This document shows, in pieces, positions 32,222-41,709 of a DNA stretch of 64,000 nt. Position 1 is the first letter of the stretch; every line of letters starts with the position of its first letter. The stretch is from Lutibacter citreus (GTDB lineage Bacteria; Bacteroidota; Bacteroidia; Flavobacteriales; Flavobacteriaceae), in assembly GCF_003260195.1 (NCBI RefSeq), contig NZ_QEIH01000006.1, forward strand, positions 372,001-436,000, written 5' to 3'. Below the pieces are notes generated by a model, which worked only from the letters and a program-made list of their open reading frames with translations, did not search any database and was not told the DNA's origin. A program made the position numbers and the translations under genes.

Positions 32222-32647
32222 ATGATTCTACCTCTAGTAAAAAAAATAACCCTAATCATTATTTTTCTAACAGCCTTTCAAATAGCTGGTCAAGAAATAG
32301 GAAACATATATAAGAACAACCATTTTATAAAACTTAATAAAACAGCTTCTGATTTTTGTTTAATTTATTCAGATATTAATTCTAATAATTTGTTTTTTGA
32401 AAACTCTATTCAATTTTCAAATAAAGAAACTATCTATAATATTATTATAAATGGTTTTAAGAAAAAAAATAACCATCAAGTATTTATTAAAACTAATAAT
32501 AACATTATTGTTAAGTTAAAATATATTCACCTTCGAGGTGAAAAATTACTATCAATAAAGCACAATAATTTATCTAATAAAACTCGAGGACAAAGTCACT
32601 TTTTTACTCAAGAAGATTTTGAACAATTGTTTAGCAGCACCATCTAA
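32222..32647 (+). CDS. Hypothetical small secreted protein
   Basis: A 141-residue open frame with a signal-peptide-like start (VKKITLIIIFLTAFQIAGQ), then a polar, Asn/Lys-rich chain without recognisable motifs. The ATG is only eight bases after the T-run of the tRNA terminator, so its promoter would have to lie within the tRNA/terminator or depend on readthrough. It is followed by a decayed receptor fragment, so it may itself be a remnant. I do not recognise a family. Confidence 0.45.
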   Translation: MILPLVKKITLIIIFLTAFQIAGQEIGNIYKNNHFIKLNKTASDFCLIYSDINSNNLFFENSIQFSNKETIYNIIINGFKKKNNHQVFIKTNNNIIVKLKYIHLRGEKLLSIKHNNLSNKTRGQSHFFTQEDFEQLFSSTI

Positions 32648-33105: not shown

Positions 33106-34170
33106 TTAATCCATATCAAATCTAATTCCTAATGAAATATTATTCTGCTTAATTTCCTGATCTTTAAAAATAGGAGACAAATCATACTTTGCGTAAACAG
33201 CAACATCTTTAAAAGCCACATATGTACTTAAACCATAAACTAAATTACTAGCATTATAATCTCTTTTTAACTTATCTTTTACTTTATCCCCATTAATAGA
33301 GTATTTTAATTTCTGGCGAGTTCCAATATTAAAACCTGCATAGCCACCAACTCCTATCTTAAATTTATTTGAAGTATCATATCTAAAATAATTATCTTTT
33401 ACGTTTTTTTTAGATGGACCAAATTCAAAATGAACAGGAAAAACCAAATTTGTTATACTTAATTTAGATTTTTTTAAATTGTATGTAAATTCTTCCAATG
33501 AAGTTTTTTCGTTTTCACTAACAAAATACTTATTATCTGTAGGTTTATATCCATTAATTTGAACAGAAACTCCATATTTGAAACGTATAAAATTAGTTTT
33601 TTCAAACACTCTTGTTTTCCAAGCCCAACCTAATTCAAAAAAACGAGAACCTCCAATTTTATAAGGTGAATCATCTAATTTTTCACCATCAATAATAGCG
33701 TTATTTAATCCAAAAGCTACTACCAAATCACTATATGTTCTTCTATCATATTTTCTAGGTTTATTATTGCCTTTTGTTTTAATCCCAATAAGAGTACCGC
33801 CATTACCTCCAATACTTATACCACCAGAAGAAGTTTCCCCTTCATTGTCATCATAACCATTATAATTCCGCTCTAAAAGCGCAATTTTATTTTCAATAAT
33901 AGCTGTTCTATTTTCAATATTTAAAGCCCTTTTTTTTGCGGCACTTTCTTTTAACTCTGTTGCTTTTTCTTCTGTAATGTCACCTTTTTGTAAACGCAAT
34001 AAAATATTTTCAACCTCACTTTTTAAAAAAGCACGTTCTTCGTTCATTATGCTTTCTTTATGTTCATTTAATATTTTAATTCTTAAACTATTATTTTGTT
34101 CTTGTGCTGTTATAAATTGTGCACTTAAAGTTAAAACTATAAGTATTATTAAACGTGTTATATTAATCAT
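33106..34170 (-). CDS. Outer-membrane beta-barrel protein with coiled-coil N-terminus
   Basis: A 354-residue exported protein with signal peptide (LIILIVLTLSAQFITAQ). A charged helical coiled-coil segment covers about residues 25-105 (SEVENILLRLQKGDITEEKA, KKRALNIENRTAIIENKIAL). A Gly/Ser stretch follows, then a barrel from about 140 with alternating strands. It ends NNISLGIRFDMD and does not carry the usual C-terminal aromatic residue. It is the third gene of an operon with an ECF sigma factor and an anti-sigma-like protein, so it is probably a target or sensor of that pair. Exact function is unknown. Confidence 0.75.
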   Translation of the reverse strand: MINITRLIILIVLTLSAQFITAQEQNNSLRIKILNEHKESIMNEERAFLKSEVENILLRLQKGDITEEKATELKESAAKKRALNIENRTAIIENKIALLERNYNGYDDNEGETSSGGISIGGNGGTLIGIKTKGNNKPRKYDRRTYSDLVVAFGLNNAIIDGEKLDDSPYKIGGSRFFELGWAWKTRVFEKTNFIRFKYGVSVQINGYKPTDNKYFVSENEKTSLEEFTYNLKKSKLSITNLVFPVHFEFGPSKKNVKDNYFRYDTSNKFKIGVGGYAGFNIGTRQKLKYSINGDKVKDKLKRDYNASNLVYGLSTYVAFKDVAVYAKYDLSPIFKDQEIKQNNISLGIRFDMD

Positions 34171-34195
34171 TGTGAATGTTTTTTAAATTGTTATT

Positions 34196-34963
34196 TTAAT
34201 TATTTCGTTGCGCAATCACAGTTTTCATACTTTCATAATTCATTTTCAAAGTCTCTAAAAATTTAACTCTTGTAGACTTGTCTAAATCTGCCTCAACGTC
34301 TTGAAGCAATTTATAAGCATCAACTATTTTAATATTTTCATTATAAATTTTTTGTAAAGCCAATTCTTTCTGAGCATTTTTCAACAACAAATCAACATCT
34401 GATGTTGAAACTGAAAAATGATTTGTCTTTAATTCTTCAATTTTATTAATTACAAGTTCAATTTCTTGATTTTCATCATCAATATTAGAACTTACCTCTA
34501 ATTCTTCCTTAACCTCAATTTTAGAGATATCATTAACTTTTATAATTGGTTTTTCGGTATCAGCAGCTGCAATTTTAGATTCAATTTCGGCCTTATAAAT
34601 TGGTTTTAACACTGATTTTTCTTGAGTATTATTTTCATTACTCTTTAATTCTTCAATATGCTGCTCTTCAACTACTAATTTTTCTGCCTTAATTTGAATA
34701 GTAGATTCTTTCTTTTCATGAGCAGGAACAGTAACAACGGTAGGCATAATCTTTTCATTCTCTTTATTAAAAAATAACGAAACAATAAATAATACCCCAA
34801 CAATACTTGCTGCAACACCCATTAAAATTAACAACTTGTTTTTTTTCTTATCTTCTTTATATTTAAGAGAATTAGCCAAAGAATCCCATGAACCTTTAGT
34901 TGGTTTTATAGTTCTTTTTTCAAGCTTATTTTTTATGTCCTGTTCAAATTTATAAGGTTCCAT
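34196..34963 (-). CDS. Single-pass membrane protein, putative anti-sigma factor
   Basis: 255 residues. A cytoplasmic N-terminal region (FEQDIKNKLEKRTIKPTKGS) precedes one membrane helix (about 43-64, KLLILMGVAASIVGVLFIVS). A long, acidic, largely helical periplasmic part follows. The first codons overlap the ECF sigma gene by 14 bases. Position and topology fit a membrane anti-sigma factor that holds the sigma factor until an envelope signal arrives. No zinc-type anti-sigma motif (HxxxCxxC) is present, so the assignment rests on context. Confidence 0.7.
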   Translation of the reverse strand: MEPYKFEQDIKNKLEKRTIKPTKGSWDSLANSLKYKEDKKKNKLLILMGVAASIVGVLFIVSLFFNKENEKIMPTVVTVPAHEKKESTIQIKAEKLVVEEQHIEELKSNENNTQEKSVLKPIYKAEIESKIAAADTEKPIIKVNDISKIEVKEELEVSSNIDDENQEIELVINKIEELKTNHFSVSTSDVDLLLKNAQKELALQKIYNENIKIVDAYKLLQDVEADLDKSTRVKFLETLKMNYESMKTVIAQRNN

Positions 34964-35513
34964 TGCTTGTCTTATTTAATTTTATAATTTTTTGTTGAAG
35001 GATTTTACGCGCCTTAAATAATTGTGATTTTGAAGTACCTTCAGAAATATTTAGAAGCTTTCCTATTTCACTATGCTTATAGCCTTCAATAGCATACATT
35101 ACAAAAACCATCCTATAGCCATCTGGAAGAGCATCTATTAAAAACTGAATTTCCTCAACATTCATATCTGAATAAACAGTATTTATAGACGCACCTTTCA
35201 GTTCTATTTCTTCAACAGAAAATTCAATGTGTTTTTGTTTTCTTAAAAAGGAAATTGATTCGCGTATCATAATTCGCCGAATCCAACCTTCAAAACTACC
35301 AGAATACTCAAACTTATGTAAATTGGAAAATACTTTTAAAAAGCCGTTGAGCATTGCCTCTTCGGCAAAATGAATATCTTTTATGTAATAACGACATACA
35401 CTCAACATTTTAGGTGCGTGCAAATTATAAAGCTGTTCTTGTGCACTGCGCTTATTTTGCATTGCCTTTTTAATTAGCTTTTCTTCGTTATTAAAAAAAT
35501 GTATGATTTTCAC
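34950..35513 (-). CDS. ECF-type RNA polymerase sigma factor
   Basis: A 187-residue sigma-70 family factor. Region 2 is near residues 25-95 (AQEQLYNLHAPKMLSVCRYY, AEEAMLNGFLKVFSNLHKF, GWIRRIMIRESISFLRK). Region 4 is near 125-180 (LPDGYRMVFVMYAIEGYKHS, EIGKLLNISEGTSKSQLFKA). Regions 1.2 and 3 are absent, as in ECF factors. It heads the operon with the anti-sigma-like and barrel genes. Regulon unknown. Confidence 0.92.
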   Translation of the reverse strand: MKIIHFFNNEEKLIKKAMQNKRSAQEQLYNLHAPKMLSVCRYYIKDIHFAEEAMLNGFLKVFSNLHKFEYSGSFEGWIRRIMIRESISFLRKQKHIEFSVEEIELKGASINTVYSDMNVEEIQFLIDALPDGYRMVFVMYAIEGYKHSEIGKLLNISEGTSKSQLFKARKILQQKIIKLNKTSNGTL

Positions 35514-35606
35514 AAATTACGTTTTTTAACCTCTATATTTATAAAGACGCAAATTACATGCAAAAGGTTGCCTGAAGAATATTTTTTTTTGAAATAAAAT
35601 AACTGT

Positions 35607-36062
35607 CTAAAACTTATAAACAAGCTTTTTTAAATAAACGCATTTGTTCTTATAATCAATTATAGCTTTTCCCTTTTCTAGAATATCTGCACCAATTATT
35701 CCGTCTATAGCTTTAGCATTATGCTCGGTTAATGCCATATTTACATGAGTTAAATCAAATAAAACTAAACTAAATTTATTATAACTCCAGTCTTTCAACT
35801 CAATTTCATTATTGTGAGAAATTTTGGTTTCCATTCCAATTGCACCGGCTCCTGCTGCTTTAGTCTCAGAATCCTCAACATTAACCATTTTAAATTTATC
35901 TTGTAATGAAATTTCTATACATGAATTTGAAGCTCCAGTATCTAAAATAAACCTGCCTTTAACACCATTAATTATAGATTTAATCTCGAAGTGATTGGTA
36001 TTAATTTTTTTTAATTTAATTCTTACATAACCCTTTCTTAAAAGAATGTTCTTTAATTTCAT
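35607..36062 (-). CDS. Retropepsin-like aspartic protease (clan AA)
   Basis: A 151-residue cytoplasmic-looking protein, with no signal peptide. The catalytic motif ILDTGASNSCIE sits near residues 38-50. The second half has the family's hydrophobic-hydrophobic-Gly pattern (IDGIIGADILEKGKAIID). Single-domain retropepsins work as dimers. It lies between the CHAT protease gene and the sigma operon on the same strand, with 93-129-base gaps, so it could be separately transcribed. Substrate unknown. Confidence 0.82.
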   Translation of the reverse strand: MKLKNILLRKGYVRIKLKKINTNHFEIKSIINGVKGRFILDTGASNSCIEISLQDKFKMVNVEDSETKAAGAGAIGMETKISHNNEIELKDWSYNKFSLVLFDLTHVNMALTEHNAKAIDGIIGADILEKGKAIIDYKNKCVYLKKLVYKF

Positions 36063-36190
36063 GTGTTTTTTTATTATTTTTGATCATACTTAAACATTAA
36101 TAAGCAACAGTCATGTTGTTCTTTATTAATCATCTCATTGGGTGAGATAAGATTAACATTTCTTTTAATATCATCAAGTTTCAGTCAAAT

Positions 36191-38863
36191 CTACTTCTTT
36201 TTCAAAAAATAATAACCACTAAAAACTATTAACACAAAAAATAATAACCAGTAATAAGTATAGTTTGATTCTTTAACTGGAGAGATTTCTCCCATATAAA
36301 TAAAACTTGCCCAATAATAAGGTGATTTTTTAGAGTTTGAAATATTTTTATCTTTTAAATAATCTAATTTAGAAAGGTATAAAGCTGTTTCTTTACTTGA
36401 AACTTTTCTTAAATTTTTATAAAAACCAGACATCAATTTCTCGGTAGATTTATCATTCACTTTCCAAAGTGAAACAACTAAATTCTTTACTCCTGCAAAT
36501 GAAAAACCTCTTGCTAAACTCATAGCTCCTTCGCCTTTTCTTAGCTTTCCTATACCGGTTTCACATGCACTTAAAACTACCAGATCCAAATTTAATTTAT
36601 ATCCATAAATCTCAGATAAAAATAAAGTATTGTTATAAAACTCTATTGAAGGAAGTGAGTTATACCCTCCCGCAGTTGCATGTGTTGACAAATGTAAAAT
36701 AGAATATTCTTTATTGAGCTTGTTAAATAATTCTTTTGAAGCATCTTTATAAAGTAAAAACTCACCATCAATTTCCCTTTCTATACTTTTAGCTTCTTGT
36801 TCTGTATAACTCAGCTCGGCCAAACCTCTATGATTGTTTTTAAAAACAGGGAAAAACCCAAGTAACTTTTGTTGTTCGTTATACCTAAATTTTAAATCAT
36901 TTAAAAGAATTGTAGCAGAATAAGCATAACTAATATTTGAGGTTTTTAAGAAATAAGGCAATTTTTCAAAATTAGTTATTTCACTTTTCTCTGTTAAAAG
37001 AGCATCAAATGGAATAAAAGAAAAAATACCATCTGGAATTAATAAAATATTTCCCGGTACTTTATTTGGAAATAATTTAGTGTAAATTTTATGTGCCAAC
37101 ACCCTATATTCCTTAATGTTATTTTGAATAGCAGATCCTCTTTCATCAGAAAACAGTGCTATAAATTTGGTTATTTGATTTACAAATTCAGTGCTTTTTT
37201 CTATTCTTAACATTGAAATTTGTTTATTTTGTGAAACTGAAAACATATAAAAATAGGTATCCCCTTCAAAAAACTCCATTAAAAGTTGATCTTCTAGTAA
37301 AACTTCATTGAGTATCTTATTTAAAGAAACCTTTTTCTTAACAGATTTTAAACTTGGATATTTAAAGTCTATTTTCTGTTGTAAAAGTTGAAATTTATTG
37401 GAAATCGCTTCTCGTTCTGCGGTTAATGTAGTAAGGTTTTGAATATTGGCTTTATTTCCTTTTAATTGCCCAAGAGCTATTTTAGTATTTAATTGCGCTT
37501 TTTTCAGTAACAAAATTTTCTCCTTAACAAACAAGGTATCACCACTAAAATCTGATTTACTTAAAGACAATTCTTTATTTTCTAAAAGCACTCTAGATTT
37601 TGTTTCTTCAGAAAAATAAAACGCTTTTTCAACCCAACTAATATTACCCGATTCTTTATAAAGTGCATAACATAATTCTATACAATCTTCACTCCTTTTT
37701 CTATTTTCTTGTTGCTGTAATAATTTAGAATTTTGATTTAAATAGGTACTTCTCAATTCATCTTCAATTAAAAAAGACAACTGATAATTTTGTAATGCTT
37801 CTGAAAATTCACCAAAACTCGCCAATACTTTTGCTCTACCATCAAAGGCTACTTTTAGTGTGTTTTCTGGATAAAAATAAACTGTTTTAGGATTCTCATA
37901 AATGGTGCTTGGCTTATAATTTGGCAATAATATTTCGATTGCTTTTTGATAATTTCTTAACGCATTTTCTAAATTATTTTGCAATCTATAAACTTCTCCT
38001 ATTTGGTTTAATATTTTAGCAATTTCACGATTATTACTGCTATAATACTTTTTTGAATATTCTAAAGCAACTTCAAACTCGGATAACGCAATATCAAATA
38101 TTCCTTTATTTAAATAACACCCACCTAAAGTATTTGCGTTTCTAATAGTTACCGAAACATCTTTATTTTTATTGATTTTATTAGAAATTGAAATATACTT
38201 TTTACAATTTTCAAAATCCTTTAAAAGAAGGTAATTAATAGCTAAATCTGAATTTATTTTAGCCTTTTGCTCAGCTGAGTTAATAGCTGATACAGCCTCC
38301 TTTAAAAGCTTAATAGCCTGGTTAAATTGCCCTTTAACACGATAAGCAGCGGCTAAATTTAAATAAGACGCCCCTAATTGATCCTTTCTGTTGTTTTTTA
38401 TAGAATTTTCAATTGATACTTTTAAAATATCTTCTGCTCTTTCCACATCACCTAAACGAGTATAATTATTTGCCAATGGTTTTAAGCAGAATTCAATAAT
38501 GTCATAGTTTATATTATTATTTTTATAAAATGAATATGCTTTTTCATAATAATCAATTGATTGATTTATAAACCCAAATTGCTTTAACTGAAATGCATAA
38601 TTAATATAGAAATATAATTTAGCAACTGATTCTTTAGATGAATTGGCATCTCGCCATAATCCGGTCTCTAAATTTTTGAATATTTTTAAGTTTTCAACAG
38701 ATGGATTAATAACAAATTCATCTAAATGAGCATAAATATACTCTGAATAATTGTCTTGGCTTTTTAAGTTATCAACTTGAAGTTGAAAGGAATTATTGAG
38801 TTGTTGCGCTACACTAAAAATAACGTTGAGTAGAAGTAATAAAACAACCCATTTTTTACGCAT
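36191..38863 (-). CDS. TPR-repeat CHAT-domain protease
   Basis: An 890-residue envelope protein. It has a signal peptide (KKWVVLLLLLNVIFSVAQ) and about eight TPR repeats up to roughly residue 400 (for example AASYLNLAAAYRVKGQFNQA and REIAKILNQIGEVYRLQNNL). A helical linker and a C-terminal CHAT caspase-like domain follow, with the catalytic His in ILHLSTHATAGG and Cys in VVLSACETGIG. The final segment is a membrane helix (WLLFFVLIVFSGYYFLKKK). The ATG is preferred over a TTG seven codons upstream, because it starts nine bases after the preceding gene's stop and begins a clean signal peptide. Peptidase activity is inferred; no partner target is visible. Confidence 0.86.
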   Translation of the reverse strand: MRKKWVVLLLLLNVIFSVAQQLNNSFQLQVDNLKSQDNYSEYIYAHLDEFVINPSVENLKIFKNLETGLWRDANSSKESVAKLYFYINYAFQLKQFGFINQSIDYYEKAYSFYKNNNINYDIIEFCLKPLANNYTRLGDVERAEDILKVSIENSIKNNRKDQLGASYLNLAAAYRVKGQFNQAIKLLKEAVSAINSAEQKAKINSDLAINYLLLKDFENCKKYISISNKINKNKDVSVTIRNANTLGGCYLNKGIFDIALSEFEVALEYSKKYYSSNNREIAKILNQIGEVYRLQNNLENALRNYQKAIEILLPNYKPSTIYENPKTVYFYPENTLKVAFDGRAKVLASFGEFSEALQNYQLSFLIEDELRSTYLNQNSKLLQQQENRKRSEDCIELCYALYKESGNISWVEKAFYFSEETKSRVLLENKELSLSKSDFSGDTLFVKEKILLLKKAQLNTKIALGQLKGNKANIQNLTTLTAEREAISNKFQLLQQKIDFKYPSLKSVKKKVSLNKILNEVLLEDQLLMEFFEGDTYFYMFSVSQNKQISMLRIEKSTEFVNQITKFIALFSDERGSAIQNNIKEYRVLAHKIYTKLFPNKVPGNILLIPDGIFSFIPFDALLTEKSEITNFEKLPYFLKTSNISYAYSATILLNDLKFRYNEQQKLLGFFPVFKNNHRGLAELSYTEQEAKSIEREIDGEFLLYKDASKELFNKLNKEYSILHLSTHATAGGYNSLPSIEFYNNTLFLSEIYGYKLNLDLVVLSACETGIGKLRKGEGAMSLARGFSFAGVKNLVVSLWKVNDKSTEKLMSGFYKNLRKVSSKETALYLSKLDYLKDKNISNSKKSPYYWASFIYMGEISPVKESNYTYYWLLFFVLIVFSGYYFLKKK

Positions 38864-38871
38864 AACAATTC

Positions 38872-40872
38872 TTATAATTTCCAAATTACATAAAAATGGA
38901 GTTGTGAATTAGGCTCATTAAAATTGTAAATATAACGTGCCCCAATACTAGGTCCAATTCGTGAAGCTCCAATTGTTATATCACCAAAAAGTCCATATTT
39001 AATATCTGATAAAGGATTATTTTCTGATGTAGTTGTTGTTGATGAAGCAGCTTCAATTAATTTTCCTTGCTCATTATTACTAATTAATGTGTAATATTCT
39101 GTTTTAATTTCAGATTCAGTTTCATTAGAAATATCTAATGATATCTGCGGACCTACACCCAATCCAATTACTCCGTTTAAATTATATCGAAATGAAACTG
39201 GGACTACATCAATATTTATTTTTGTAGTTATTATATTTCTGTCTTCCACTTTTAAAACTCGGTCAAAACCGGTTCCATCAGGGAGTTCAAGTACATCAAC
39301 CTGCTCATTAGCGCTAGATATTTCCTTTATTTCATGGTTACCAACCATTAATTCAGCTTGTAAATATTTTTTATAAGATTTATAAGGAGAAATAGTTGCC
39401 CCCACAAAATAACTTTTTGAATCGTTTAAATTTGGAAAACTATTATAACCTGCTTTCACACCAATTGAAATTCCTGGAGAAAATCTTGAAGTTGAAGTGT
39501 TAGTTATAATAGGTTCATTTTTATCGAAAATGATAGATGTTTTACTTTTTGAAGATTCTTTATGAAATTTTTTACCAAATTTTAATGAATATTTCACAAA
39601 ACCCTTGGTTGAATCTTTTTCTTGAACTCCTTTTTGCTCAGTACCTGGTAAATAAATGTTTTTAAATTGAAAAGATATTTTATCTTTTGAGATAATAGTA
39701 TCCAAACAACTATAGCGAACTTCTTTCTCATCAGGACAAATTGGACATTTCGGATACATATCCACCACCTTTAAACTAGTTTTATCCAACATCTTAGGTA
39801 TTTCCACATTTAATTTAATTAAACGCGCTGGTCCTTCCCCATTATTTTGAAATCTAACTTTATATTTTAACCTTTTAAACCGAACCAATCTATAATTTAA
39901 ACGAGTATCATATACGGCCATTTTATTAGGATCATGAGACGTTACAATTTCCATTTCTTTTGTTAATACTTTATGCTCATCCATTCCTCTTTCTGGAACA
40001 TAAACACTTCTTATTGAAATTACAGCGCTCGTATCTTTTAACATTTCTGGTGTAGTTTTAAATGTAAAAAACATATTGCGATCTTCATTAGGCTCCATAT
40101 CGTTAAAATCATAAACTTTTACACTGTTATAATATGCCTTAGAATCTTCTAATGTTAACGGTAAGTTTTGTTTTAAAGAATCTGTAACTATTAAGTTTGC
40201 ATCCATAAAAGTTGAAATACCGGTAGTTTGAATAAGTTCATCCTTTGAAATTGAATTATATTTAGAAGCTATTATACCTTCTTCAACCTCAATCTCGTTA
40301 TTGTATAATCTAGCGTCAATTAATTCAAAGTTTTTACTTTTATACTTTTTCTCATTAAAAAAAAGATATAGCTTACCTTTAGTTGCGTAATCTTTATCAT
40401 TGCCATAGCTAACTACCATTTGAATTTCTTCATCAGGTACTGGCTCTCTATTGGTTTGAAGTCTAAATCCATTAAAGGCGCTTACTAAATTATGTCCTGA
40501 ATTTAAATCTGTAGTAGTTTCACTAGATAAAACAGCAACTTCTTTTGGTCTTGTAGTTGGCGGCTTACCATCATCATAATTATTTGTTATTGATAATTGA
40601 ACTTTATAATTACCTTTTTCTTTATATGAATGTTTTGGTTCTTTAGAAAAACTATAATCACCATCTCCAAACTCCCAATAATAAGTATAAAATGCTTTTG
40701 GAGCTCCCGCTATTTGATTTAATATAGGTGTATCTGCATTAAATAAAACTTGATTTCCATTAGTATTGTACACAATTTTTGCGGTTCTAATTATTGTATC
40801 ATTTTCAACAGTTTGTGCATTTGCAGAATAAAAAAACAACATTAAAACTATAAATATCAATCTACTTTTCAT
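38872..40872 (-). CDS. PKD-domain protein with C-terminal outer-membrane barrel
   Basis: 666 residues starting MKSRLIFIVLMLFFYSANAQ, a signal peptide. A longer in-frame start would run through the neighbouring terminator hairpin and is rejected. A PKD domain follows (about 40-115; YYWEFGDGDYSFSKEPKHSY). The middle has a conserved-repeat-like domain (about 335-460; YKVRFQNNGEGPARLIKLNV) with a CPICPDE cysteine pair. The last 180 residues look like a beta-barrel ending IYNFNEPNSQLHFYVIWKL. The CHAT gene follows after eight bases, so the two probably work together at the outer membrane. Function unknown. Confidence 0.75.
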   Translation of the reverse strand: MKSRLIFIVLMLFFYSANAQTVENDTIIRTAKIVYNTNGNQVLFNADTPILNQIAGAPKAFYTYYWEFGDGDYSFSKEPKHSYKEKGNYKVQLSITNNYDDGKPPTTRPKEVAVLSSETTTDLNSGHNLVSAFNGFRLQTNREPVPDEEIQMVVSYGNDKDYATKGKLYLFFNEKKYKSKNFELIDARLYNNEIEVEEGIIASKYNSISKDELIQTTGISTFMDANLIVTDSLKQNLPLTLEDSKAYYNSVKVYDFNDMEPNEDRNMFFTFKTTPEMLKDTSAVISIRSVYVPERGMDEHKVLTKEMEIVTSHDPNKMAVYDTRLNYRLVRFKRLKYKVRFQNNGEGPARLIKLNVEIPKMLDKTSLKVVDMYPKCPICPDEKEVRYSCLDTIISKDKISFQFKNIYLPGTEQKGVQEKDSTKGFVKYSLKFGKKFHKESSKSKTSIIFDKNEPIITNTSTSRFSPGISIGVKAGYNSFPNLNDSKSYFVGATISPYKSYKKYLQAELMVGNHEIKEISSANEQVDVLELPDGTGFDRVLKVEDRNIITTKINIDVVPVSFRYNLNGVIGLGVGPQISLDISNETESEIKTEYYTLISNNEQGKLIEAASSTTTTSENNPLSDIKYGLFGDITIGASRIGPSIGARYIYNFNEPNSQLHFYVIWKL

Positions 40873-40989: not shown

Positions 40990-41709
40990 CTATTCAACTT
41001 TAAAAGCAATAGGTAAACTATATTTTACACCAACAGGTCTTCCTCTTTGTTTCCCTGGTATCATTTTTGGCAATAAATTTACAACTCTAATTGCTTCTTC
41101 TTGCAATCTCTTATGAGGTGCACGAGCCATTACATCTGTAATATTACCAGATTTATCAATTTTAAACATTACAAAAATACGCTTAACTCCAGGAGCTAAA
41201 CCTAAATCTGATGCTAAATCTGCATTAAACTTTTTATTAACGTGTTTTGTTATTTTTTCTTGAAGACAAGCTCTTAATTGTGCTTTACTTCCTTTACAAC
41301 CTGGAAATACTGGTACATCCTCAATAATTGCGAACGGTACATCCTCAATTACTTCTTCAACTTCTTCAACTTCAATAATTTCTTCAACTTCAACTGCTTC
41401 ATTTTCATCAGTTTCAGTAGATTCAATTACTGTCTCTTCAACCTCTACCTCATCTTCAACAACTTCAATTTTATCTGGAGTTGGTGGTGGTGGAGTTTTT
41501 GGCTCTGGCGGCTTCACTTGTTCAATCTCAATGGTCTGTTCTTCATCGTCCATATTTAAAACTACTGGTCCAAGATCGGCAATTACCCTATCGTATGTTT
41601 TCTTTTCAATGGCTAAATAAACCACCAATAAAGCTAAAACTAAACCTAGTTGCATAAATATTTTGCTGTAGTTCTCTAGATTTGCTTTTGGATTCTTTTT
41701 AATCTGCAT
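40990..41709 (-). CDS. TonB family energy transducer
   Basis: A 239-residue inner-membrane protein that couples the proton gradient to outer-membrane receptors. One helix lies near residues 17-35 (IFMQLGLVLALLVVYLAIEK). The periplasmic linker has a short proline run (PPEPKTPPPPTPDK) and then an unusually acidic Glu/Val stretch to about residue 125. The C-terminal TonB domain (about 130-239) has VFPGCKGSKAQLRACLQEKI and GNITDVMARAPHKRLQEEAI, ending in the typical PIAFKVE strand. It lies downstream of vanZ in the conserved sprA neighbourhood. Confidence 0.9.
   Translation of the reverse strand: MQIKKNPKANLENYSKIFMQLGLVLALLVVYLAIEKKTYDRVIADLGPVVLNMDDEEQTIEIEQVKPPEPKTPPPPTPDKIEVVEDEVEVEETVIESTETDENEAVEVEEIIEVEEVEEVIEDVPFAIIEDVPVFPGCKGSKAQLRACLQEKITKHVNKKFNADLASDLGLAPGVKRIFVMFKIDKSGNITDVMARAPHKRLQEEAIRVVNLLPKMIPGKQRGRPVGVKYSLPIAFKVE

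Follow-up and report, generated by a model that had tools for sequence, protein, structure and literature searches.

A TPR-CHAT protease and a PKD-barrel protein of Lutibacter citreus belong to a five-gene ECF sigma factor module and may form its envelope half

We analysed a stretch of 64,000 nucleotides from Lutibacter citreus (contig NZ_QEIH01000006.1, positions 372,001 to 436,000, here called the window; the genome, of 5.1 Mb, is referred to as G000), in which six genes follow one another on the minus strand from position 40872 down to 33106. In this order they encode a protein with PKD domains, a TPR-CHAT protease, a retropepsin-like aspartic protease, an extracytoplasmic function (ECF) sigma factor, a protein with one transmembrane (TM) stretch and an exported protein. 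All six are present at the places and on the strand given in the initial annotation, and the start it chose for the PKD gene, ATG 40872, is likely correct. Its grouping of the six genes into one proteolytic signalling cluster is wrong. Rather, the PKD and CHAT genes form a pair that belongs to a five-gene module, made up of genes for an ECF sigma factor, a protein of about 240 residues (SMALL), a lipoprotein (X), PKD and CHAT, and this better-supported module lies partly outside the window.

The PKD protein (38872..40872, minus strand; 666 residues) is the core partner of CHAT. It has a signal-like N-terminus, followed by PKD domains, DUF7619 and a C-terminal DUF7849 barrel, with matches over the Pfam cut-offs to PKD_4, PKD, DUF7619 and DUF7849 (208 bits). 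In an AlphaFold2 model of the protein (mean pLDDT 74.4, pTM 0.44), the last 200 residues (467-666) matched OprF (4rlc; Z 15.4, root-mean-square deviation (rmsd) 2.3, 129 aligned residues) and OmpA (1qjp; Z 14.4, rmsd 2.3, 132 aligned). This OmpA-like barrel fold emerged in a VIA second look, which was applied after Foldseek had returned long rows of low TM-score for the models of both X and PKD; plain Foldseek put other folds first. The N-terminal domains of OmpA-type barrels face the periplasm. By this topology, PKD is predicted to sit in the outer membrane as a barrel of the OmpA type, with its large N-terminal domains in the periplasm.

The CHAT gene (36191..38863, minus strand; likely start ATG 38863) encodes a protein of 890 residues, with TPRs, a CHAT domain that scores 153.7 bits in Pfam against a cut-off of 24, and a KKK tail. 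G000 has no other CHAT match. Its His728 and Cys767 are invariant in alignments of 20 and of 29 rows. Hydropathy also indicates a signal-like N-terminus and a C-terminal TM segment, and among the type-A CHATs of the loci described below an N-terminal hydrophobic stretch was found in 76 of 78 and a C-terminal TM segment likewise in 76 of 78, the rules used for hydropathy and for lipoboxes being simple and permissive. Taken together, the two ends of the protein and the invariant residues suggest that CHAT is most probably a periplasmic protease anchored in the inner membrane.

We examined the surroundings of the pair in 78 loci, the best of 317 relatives, which lean towards Flavobacterium and include Lutibacter, Flavobacterium, Xanthomarina, Bizionia, Sinomicrobium, Fulvivirga, Parachryseolinea and others. 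In 77 of these, CHAT immediately follows PKD on the same strand (the exception, L046, is cut by a contig end, and L049 has PKD in two open reading frames (ORFs)). An ECF sigma factor gene and SMALL stand divergently upstream of PKD-CHAT in 66 loci and convergently downstream of CHAT in one more (L052), giving 67 of 78 with both genes near CHAT, and one to three copies of X precede PKD in 69. Sigma and SMALL are missing from 11 loci, four of them close to a contig end and the other seven Lutibacter loci at a site marked by SprA and TonB. Within the same loci, SMALL matched 67 times in the 955 kb near CHAT versus never in the 698 kb farther out, and sigma matched 69 times near CHAT (two of these being sigma factors of the window type) versus never in the 698 kb farther out. 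At one locus (L266 of genome G009, from position 2769 onward), an extra ORF with a lipoprotein-like start lies between X and PKD and has its own match of the promoter-like pattern described below.

The distribution of the five genes across genomes coincides exactly in Lutibacter. Each protein was searched in 60 genomes, 37 of Lutibacter and 23 of others in the order, with presence cut-offs of 1e-3 for PKD and CHAT, 1e-8 for SMALL and X, and 1e-25 for sigma; the last three were searched with queries from L036, so that distant versions may be missed. Full-length PKD, CHAT, SMALL, X and sigma were all found in the same 20 Lutibacter genomes and in G052, from outside the genus, and the remaining 17 Lutibacter genomes (six of them less than 90% complete, 11 at least 94% complete) gave no such full-length match for any of the five. 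Weaker partial matches elsewhere were limited to PKD or to the TPR and CHAT parts, and X also had matches of 30-34% in G043 and G056, neither of which had a sigma or SMALL match. The five genes make up one locus in nine of the 20 genomes. In the other 11 (G000, G008, G011, G013, G014, G019, G021, G030, G032, G035 and G036), sigma-SMALL-X is not followed by PKD-CHAT, the status of G014, with its small contigs, being deduced from the gene after X. In G000 itself, sigma-SMALL-X is on contig C12 at about 112090-115761, unlinked to the window, with two copies of X and then two tonB-like genes. One half of the module alone was found in none of the 37 Lutibacter genomes. That the gene set is kept even when its two halves are apart speaks for contact between the proteins, rather than shared control alone. 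Thus, the idea that an envelope CHAT is tied to an ECF sigma factor and a membrane anti-sigma-like protein stands, with the real partner on contig C12 in place of the adjacent sigma factor that had been proposed.

Genes of the tonB-like kind flank both halves of the split arrangement, at 40990-41709 before PKD and at L245:6197-7830 after X on C12 (the latter named by eye), and recombination between them could have moved PKD-CHAT. For a view of how often the module has come or gone, we used a tree of a single gene of about 450 bases, the retropepsin gene, in 36 genomes (G003, which lacks it, was omitted). On the best tree, the presence of the module changes nine times, with at least five of the changes on starred branches. 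The five genes agree in all five starred pairs (sign test p 0.0625), because all share the identical pattern of presence.

Turning to the proteins of the other half of the module, its sigma matched TIGR02937 over the cut-off in both copies scanned. SMALL has one TM segment by hydropathy, with a median start at residue 87, in all 67 type-A copies, and its C-terminal part is TPR-like. Among 24 SMALL members, 14 matched the NCBIfam antisigma model and 11 the LIMLP_03685 anti-sigma model, with the scores shown falling below the curated cut-offs; this weakly suggests an anti-sigma-like protein, with a putative cytosolic N-terminus and a putative periplasmic TPR domain. X is predicted to be a lipoprotein, a permissive lipobox being found in 73 of 73 copies. 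It had no Pfam family over the cut-off, no PDB sequence match up to E 1 and no convincing match by plain Foldseek. In the second look at its structure model (mean pLDDT 83.8), residues ~57-241 matched ankyrin ZU5, GAIN, UNC5b and NLRP1 with Z from 9.6 to 6.6, entries of these four kinds filling 13 of the top 14 rows; the best, 4d8o, had Z 9.6, rmsd 4.7 and 133 aligned residues, at a level where middling Z values are common. A ZU5/GAIN-like fold for X is suggestive only. HFS and HL-T/S are the cleavage motifs of ZU5/FIIND/GAIN-type proteins, and no such autoproteolytic motif was recognised, by eye, in the X alignment. The likeness to the animal ZU5/FIIND and GAIN proteins (ankyrin, UNC5b, NLRP1, adhesion G-protein-coupled receptors) lies in the predicted fold of this region; X differs from them as a bacterial lipoprotein, and a shared fold shows no function.

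The association of CHAT with sigma and SMALL extends to CHATs that have no PKD-barrel neighbour. DUF7849 exceeds its cut-off in five of 295 Bacteroidia genomes, that of the window included, and a CHAT gene adjoins it in each; in G264, DUF7849 was below the cut-off and CHAT had no match at 1e-30. We describe CHAT genes more widely through a neighbourhood sample of 59 of 67 CHAT places plus G042, leaving out the window itself, G123, G064, two places in G067, G242, G278 and G147. The sample holds 62 CHAT ORFs, of which three have a PKD-barrel partner and 59 do not; second ORFs in L182, L187 and L192 are counted among the 59. A sigma or SMALL match was found within 4 kb of 34 of these 59, and SMALL was convergent within 100 bp in 15; among CHAT ORFs with at least 2.5 kb on both sides, the figure was 21 of 38. 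The profiles used here started from eight sigma and nine SMALL proteins of these same loci and were extended by iteration; the one for sigma thereby broadened into a general ECF profile, which matches the window sigma too. CHATs of more than 700 residues without a PKD-barrel neighbour had a C-terminal TM segment in 42 of 55 cases. Since the motif expressions for Cys and His matched just 28 and 34 of those 55, some of these CHATs may be inactive or may differ in motif. Locus L182 (G330) has two tandem CHAT genes near one sigma/SMALL pair, each after a gene for an exported-looking protein of ~140 residues.

A conserved promoter-like pattern lies ahead of X. The element GGGTAACAA recurs in the gap between sigma and X in the 12 loci examined and in G000. 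In Lutibacter and Fulvivirga it is followed by 11-14 bases and then TTGAT (CTGAT in L038), and two Flavobacterium loci have GGGTAACAA with a different second half. The exact pattern, GGGTAACAA-N11..14-TTGAT, matches twice in the 5.1 Mb of G000, once before each X copy. Every one of the 20 CHAT-plus Lutibacter genomes has at least one match, and in 19 of them a match immediately precedes an X gene (the exception is G023). Over the 60 genomes the pattern matched 49 times, versus eight for a reversed-pattern control. Further matches precede exported proteins, which form a candidate regulon. Four loci (L262, L276, L279 and L282, at about position 1500) have related exported-looking proteins of ~110-140 residues downstream of GGGTAACAA-N-TTGAT, candidates for this regulon, and three others (L265, L272 and L288, again at about position 1500) have related exported-looking proteins of at least 480 residues, cut by the locus end, downstream of the pattern; these may be regulon members or chance.

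We propose, with a probability of roughly one half, that the five genes encode a sigma pathway whose envelope half consists of PKD and TPR-CHAT, and in which a cut of SMALL by CHAT leads to the release of sigma. The PKD barrel, lipoprotein X or both would read an envelope signal. CHAT, held to the inner membrane by its C-terminal TM segment with its TPRs in the periplasm, would be gated by PKD and X and would cut the periplasmic part of SMALL, either directly or via X. SMALL would hold sigma until cut, and further proteolysis after the CHAT cut would free sigma from SMALL. The freed sigma would then transcribe X and other exported proteins from the GGGTAACAA-N11..14-TTGAT promoters. The gene content, the linkage, the exact co-occurrence, which persists in genomes where the halves are apart, the predicted topology and the conserved promoter-like site before X are observed; the hold of SMALL on sigma, its cut by CHAT, the order of these events and the nature of the signal are what we infer.

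Another way to view PKD and CHAT is as effectors. Sigma and SMALL alone would sense stress and switch on X-PKD-CHAT, with the protease processing other envelope or exported proteins. The divergent layout, the conserved promoter-like element before X, which is the first gene ahead of PKD-CHAT in the linked genomes, and the exported proteins behind other pattern matches would all fit such an arrangement. However, the split genomes keep PKD-CHAT away from the X promoter, and neither match in G000 precedes PKD, yet the pair was not found in a genome without sigma and SMALL. CHATs without PKD neighbours, moreover, also stand end to end with SMALL, and common regulation by itself would not call for this. 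We regard the effector arrangement as a serious but somewhat unlikely alternative.

Several observations weigh against the proposed pathway of proteolytic sigma release. The pattern was looked for upstream of the window PKD and not found, so sigma need not control CHAT, and it does match in seven genomes without the module (four of the 17 CHAT-minus Lutibacter and three others). Neither sigma nor SMALL lay within 4 kb of 25 of the 59 CHAT ORFs without a PKD-barrel neighbour, some of which have short flanks. The anti-sigma scores of SMALL, as shown, are far below the curated cut-offs, and its PDB matches are TPR proteins. The tree comes from one short gene and offers only five independent pairs on starred branches (p 0.0625), and the module label is weakly clustered on it relative to shuffles (17 of 500 were as low). 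Joint presence in the nine linked genomes can be explained as one gain or loss. The 11 split genomes are the stronger evidence; these may stem from a single split event, and we therefore do not count them as independent.

The site of the pair in the window has a recurrent neighbourhood. TonB, a VanZ-like gene, GcvH and SprA (the last three named by eye) lie in that order on one side, and tRNA-Asn, SucA and SucB (the latter two again named by eye, as were the extra tonB-like genes) on the other. A plus-strand ORF of 141 residues with a hydrophobic start (32222-32647) comes after tRNA-Asn and has no family over the cut-off. In nine of the 17 CHAT-minus Lutibacter genomes, SprA-GcvH-VanZ-TonB-retropepsin-SucB runs uninterrupted, and two genes, PKD and CHAT, have therefore been inserted or deleted as a unit between TonB and retropepsin. 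In G027, the last 50 CHAT codons remain before an intact retropepsin gene (L146:2603-2752), which we read as the scar of a deletion of the pair. In G018, a retropepsin remnant adjoins CHAT (L153:9826-9915) and an intact copy lies by SucB (L149:9771-10220).

The retropepsin-like aspartic protease itself (35607..36062, minus strand; 151 residues, without a signal peptide) matches Asp_protease_2 (41 bits), RVP (24.3 bits) and gag-asp_proteas over the Pfam cut-offs and has a DTGAS motif, which places it in clan AA. It had been taken for an envelope protease; because it has no hydrophobic N-terminus, it is probably cytosolic. Its gene is directly downstream of CHAT in 64 of the 78 loci, one of which, L037, has a truncated copy. 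Of the others, 13 are without it, among them L042 with a match of 30 residues, and L059 has just a distant match of 433 residues. It is also present in 36 of the 37 Lutibacter genomes, with or without CHAT, and we rejected it as an obligate member of the module. Its place behind CHAT is an old neighbourhood.

The sigma factor next to the retropepsin gene (34950..35513, minus strand) belongs to a separate operon. It matches Sigma70_r2 and r4_2 over the Pfam cut-offs, and is identified by NCBIfam as well. The gene after it (34196..34963, minus strand) overlaps it by 14 bp and encodes a protein with one TM stretch from residue 45 by hydropathy, no family over the Pfam or NCBIfam cut-offs, and a position that makes it a putative anti-sigma. 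The last gene (33106..34170, minus strand) encodes a protein with an N-terminal hydrophobic stretch, in keeping with export; the barrel earlier assigned to it was recognised by eye, and no family exceeds the cut-off. Used as a marker for the operon, this gene is found in 13 of 37 Lutibacter genomes, beside retropepsin in six (one of which, G017, is without PKD-CHAT) and elsewhere in seven, with no full-length or near match in the other 24. An element of the form GGCAAC(C/T)...GCGTCT lies upstream of sigma in all six genomes with the operon beside retropepsin (in the window, GGCAACC...GCGTCT at 35545..35572, minus strand), and among the more distant copies elsewhere, six had their upstream regions examined and three of these carry a similar one. 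It may well be the operon's own ECF-type promoter.

The same strand, the close spacing and an identical order in five CHAT-plus Lutibacter genomes (G000, G011, G019, G030 and G036) would favour the initial annotation's view of six genes as a single proteolytic signalling cluster with this adjacent sigma as its output. Against it, the operon marker occurs in seven of the 20 CHAT-plus and six of the 17 CHAT-minus genomes, and on the retropepsin tree the operon went with CHAT in 0.7, against it in 0.4 and without difference in 3.9 of five pairs. We rejected the operon as a CHAT partner on its distribution, the tree and its own promoter-like element, and consider the six-gene cluster very improbable. 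Because of that element and of a distribution apart from CHAT, the operon looks self-contained, a bystander. Separate occurrence of the units in relatives, which the initial annotation had named as telling against a cluster, is thus seen for the sigma operon and largely for retropepsin, and not for PKD-CHAT.

The proposed pathway can be compared with two known systems. DegS is a PDZ serine protease, and the DegS-RseA-RseP-sigmaE pathway comprises a membrane-anchored periplasmic protease, a one-TM anti-sigma and an ECF sigma factor. The proposed module would have the same layout, with an anti-sigma-like protein of one TM segment, and differs in its caspase-like cysteine protease, its dedicated barrel and lipoprotein, and the TPR periplasmic domain predicted on SMALL. 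Craspase is cytosolic. It is RNA-activated with Cas7-11, whereas the CHAT described here carries a signal-like N-terminus and a TM segment, SMALL has a TM segment, and the partners include a barrel and a lipoprotein. A TPR-CHAT of the Craspase kind would be free of export or membrane signals, and the type-A CHATs carry them at both ends (76 of 78 in each case). The passages available from PMC10028731 outline the DegS-RseA-RseP-sigmaE envelope stress pathway and describe Craspase, or CASP, of type III-E CRISPR (Csx29, a TPR-CHAT, with Csx30 and CASP-sigma), in which the protease cuts a sigma inhibitor. What Craspase and the present module would share is a TPR-CHAT genetically tied to an ECF sigma factor and its inhibitor, here putatively SMALL. 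The likeness of our CHAT to Csx29 rests on the Pfam domain, because the last 269 CHAT residues had no PDB match by sequence and the whole CHAT profile gave TPR proteins among the matches listed (60 rows). By analogy, the proposed switch would work like DegS/RseA and Craspase and yet be neither, differing from DegS in protease family and from Craspase in its membrane setting.

The same combination of TPR-CHAT, sigma and sigma inhibitor, which is the logic of Craspase in the passages of PMC10028731, would also suit a Craspase-like phage defence in which sigma serves an immune response, as would the patchy presence of the module and a match of the retropepsin to the PADLOC candidate PDC-M08B (32 bits). 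Against defence, CHAT, PKD, X and SMALL carry export or membrane signals, PADLOC returned nothing for PKD and just a TPR model for CHAT, and the neighbours that recur at the window site are housekeeping genes. We consider this quite improbable. A bolder extension of the proposed pathway, which we think unlikely and offer as speculation, sees in it an envelope counterpart of animal ZU5/FIIND-caspase signalling. X, as a lipoprotein of ZU5/GAIN-like fold, and the PKD barrel in the outer membrane would gate a periplasmic CHAT, whose cut of a membrane anti-sigma with TPRs would fire an ECF sigma factor; the protease-anti-sigma logic, without the barrel, would then extend across Bacteroidota, and Craspase would be a relative of it in the cytosol.

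The CalpL-CalpT-CalpS system of type III CRISPR is likewise a trio of protease, anti-sigma and ECF sigma factor, differing in a Lon-type protease switched on by cyclic tetra-adenylate (PMC11417357, in the passages available). In the passages available from a review (PMC8999054), the genetic context of ECF54 holds CHAT, subtilase and carboxypeptidase proteins, and proteolytic control is proposed; CHAT there lies in the context of an ECF sigma factor, as it does here, and the bare association of sigma with CHAT is therefore not wholly new. Among the matches listed from the open-licence PMC literature, as far as their passages go, we found no account of an envelope module with a barrel, a lipoprotein and a TPR anti-sigma-like protein, the nearest being this ECF54 statement. 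In those passages, the bacterial CHAT proteases act in CRISPR systems.

What the module adds is an envelope CHAT tied by exact co-occurrence to an ECF sigma factor and an anti-sigma-like protein, in Flavobacteriia and Cytophagia. It also illustrates that the nearest sigma factor on the map need not be the partner. The linked locus is present in a strain of Flavobacterium johnsoniae (L097), a species with genetics, and therefore a part for the module in envelope-damage sensing, and the role of a membrane-anchored CHAT in it, would be directly testable.

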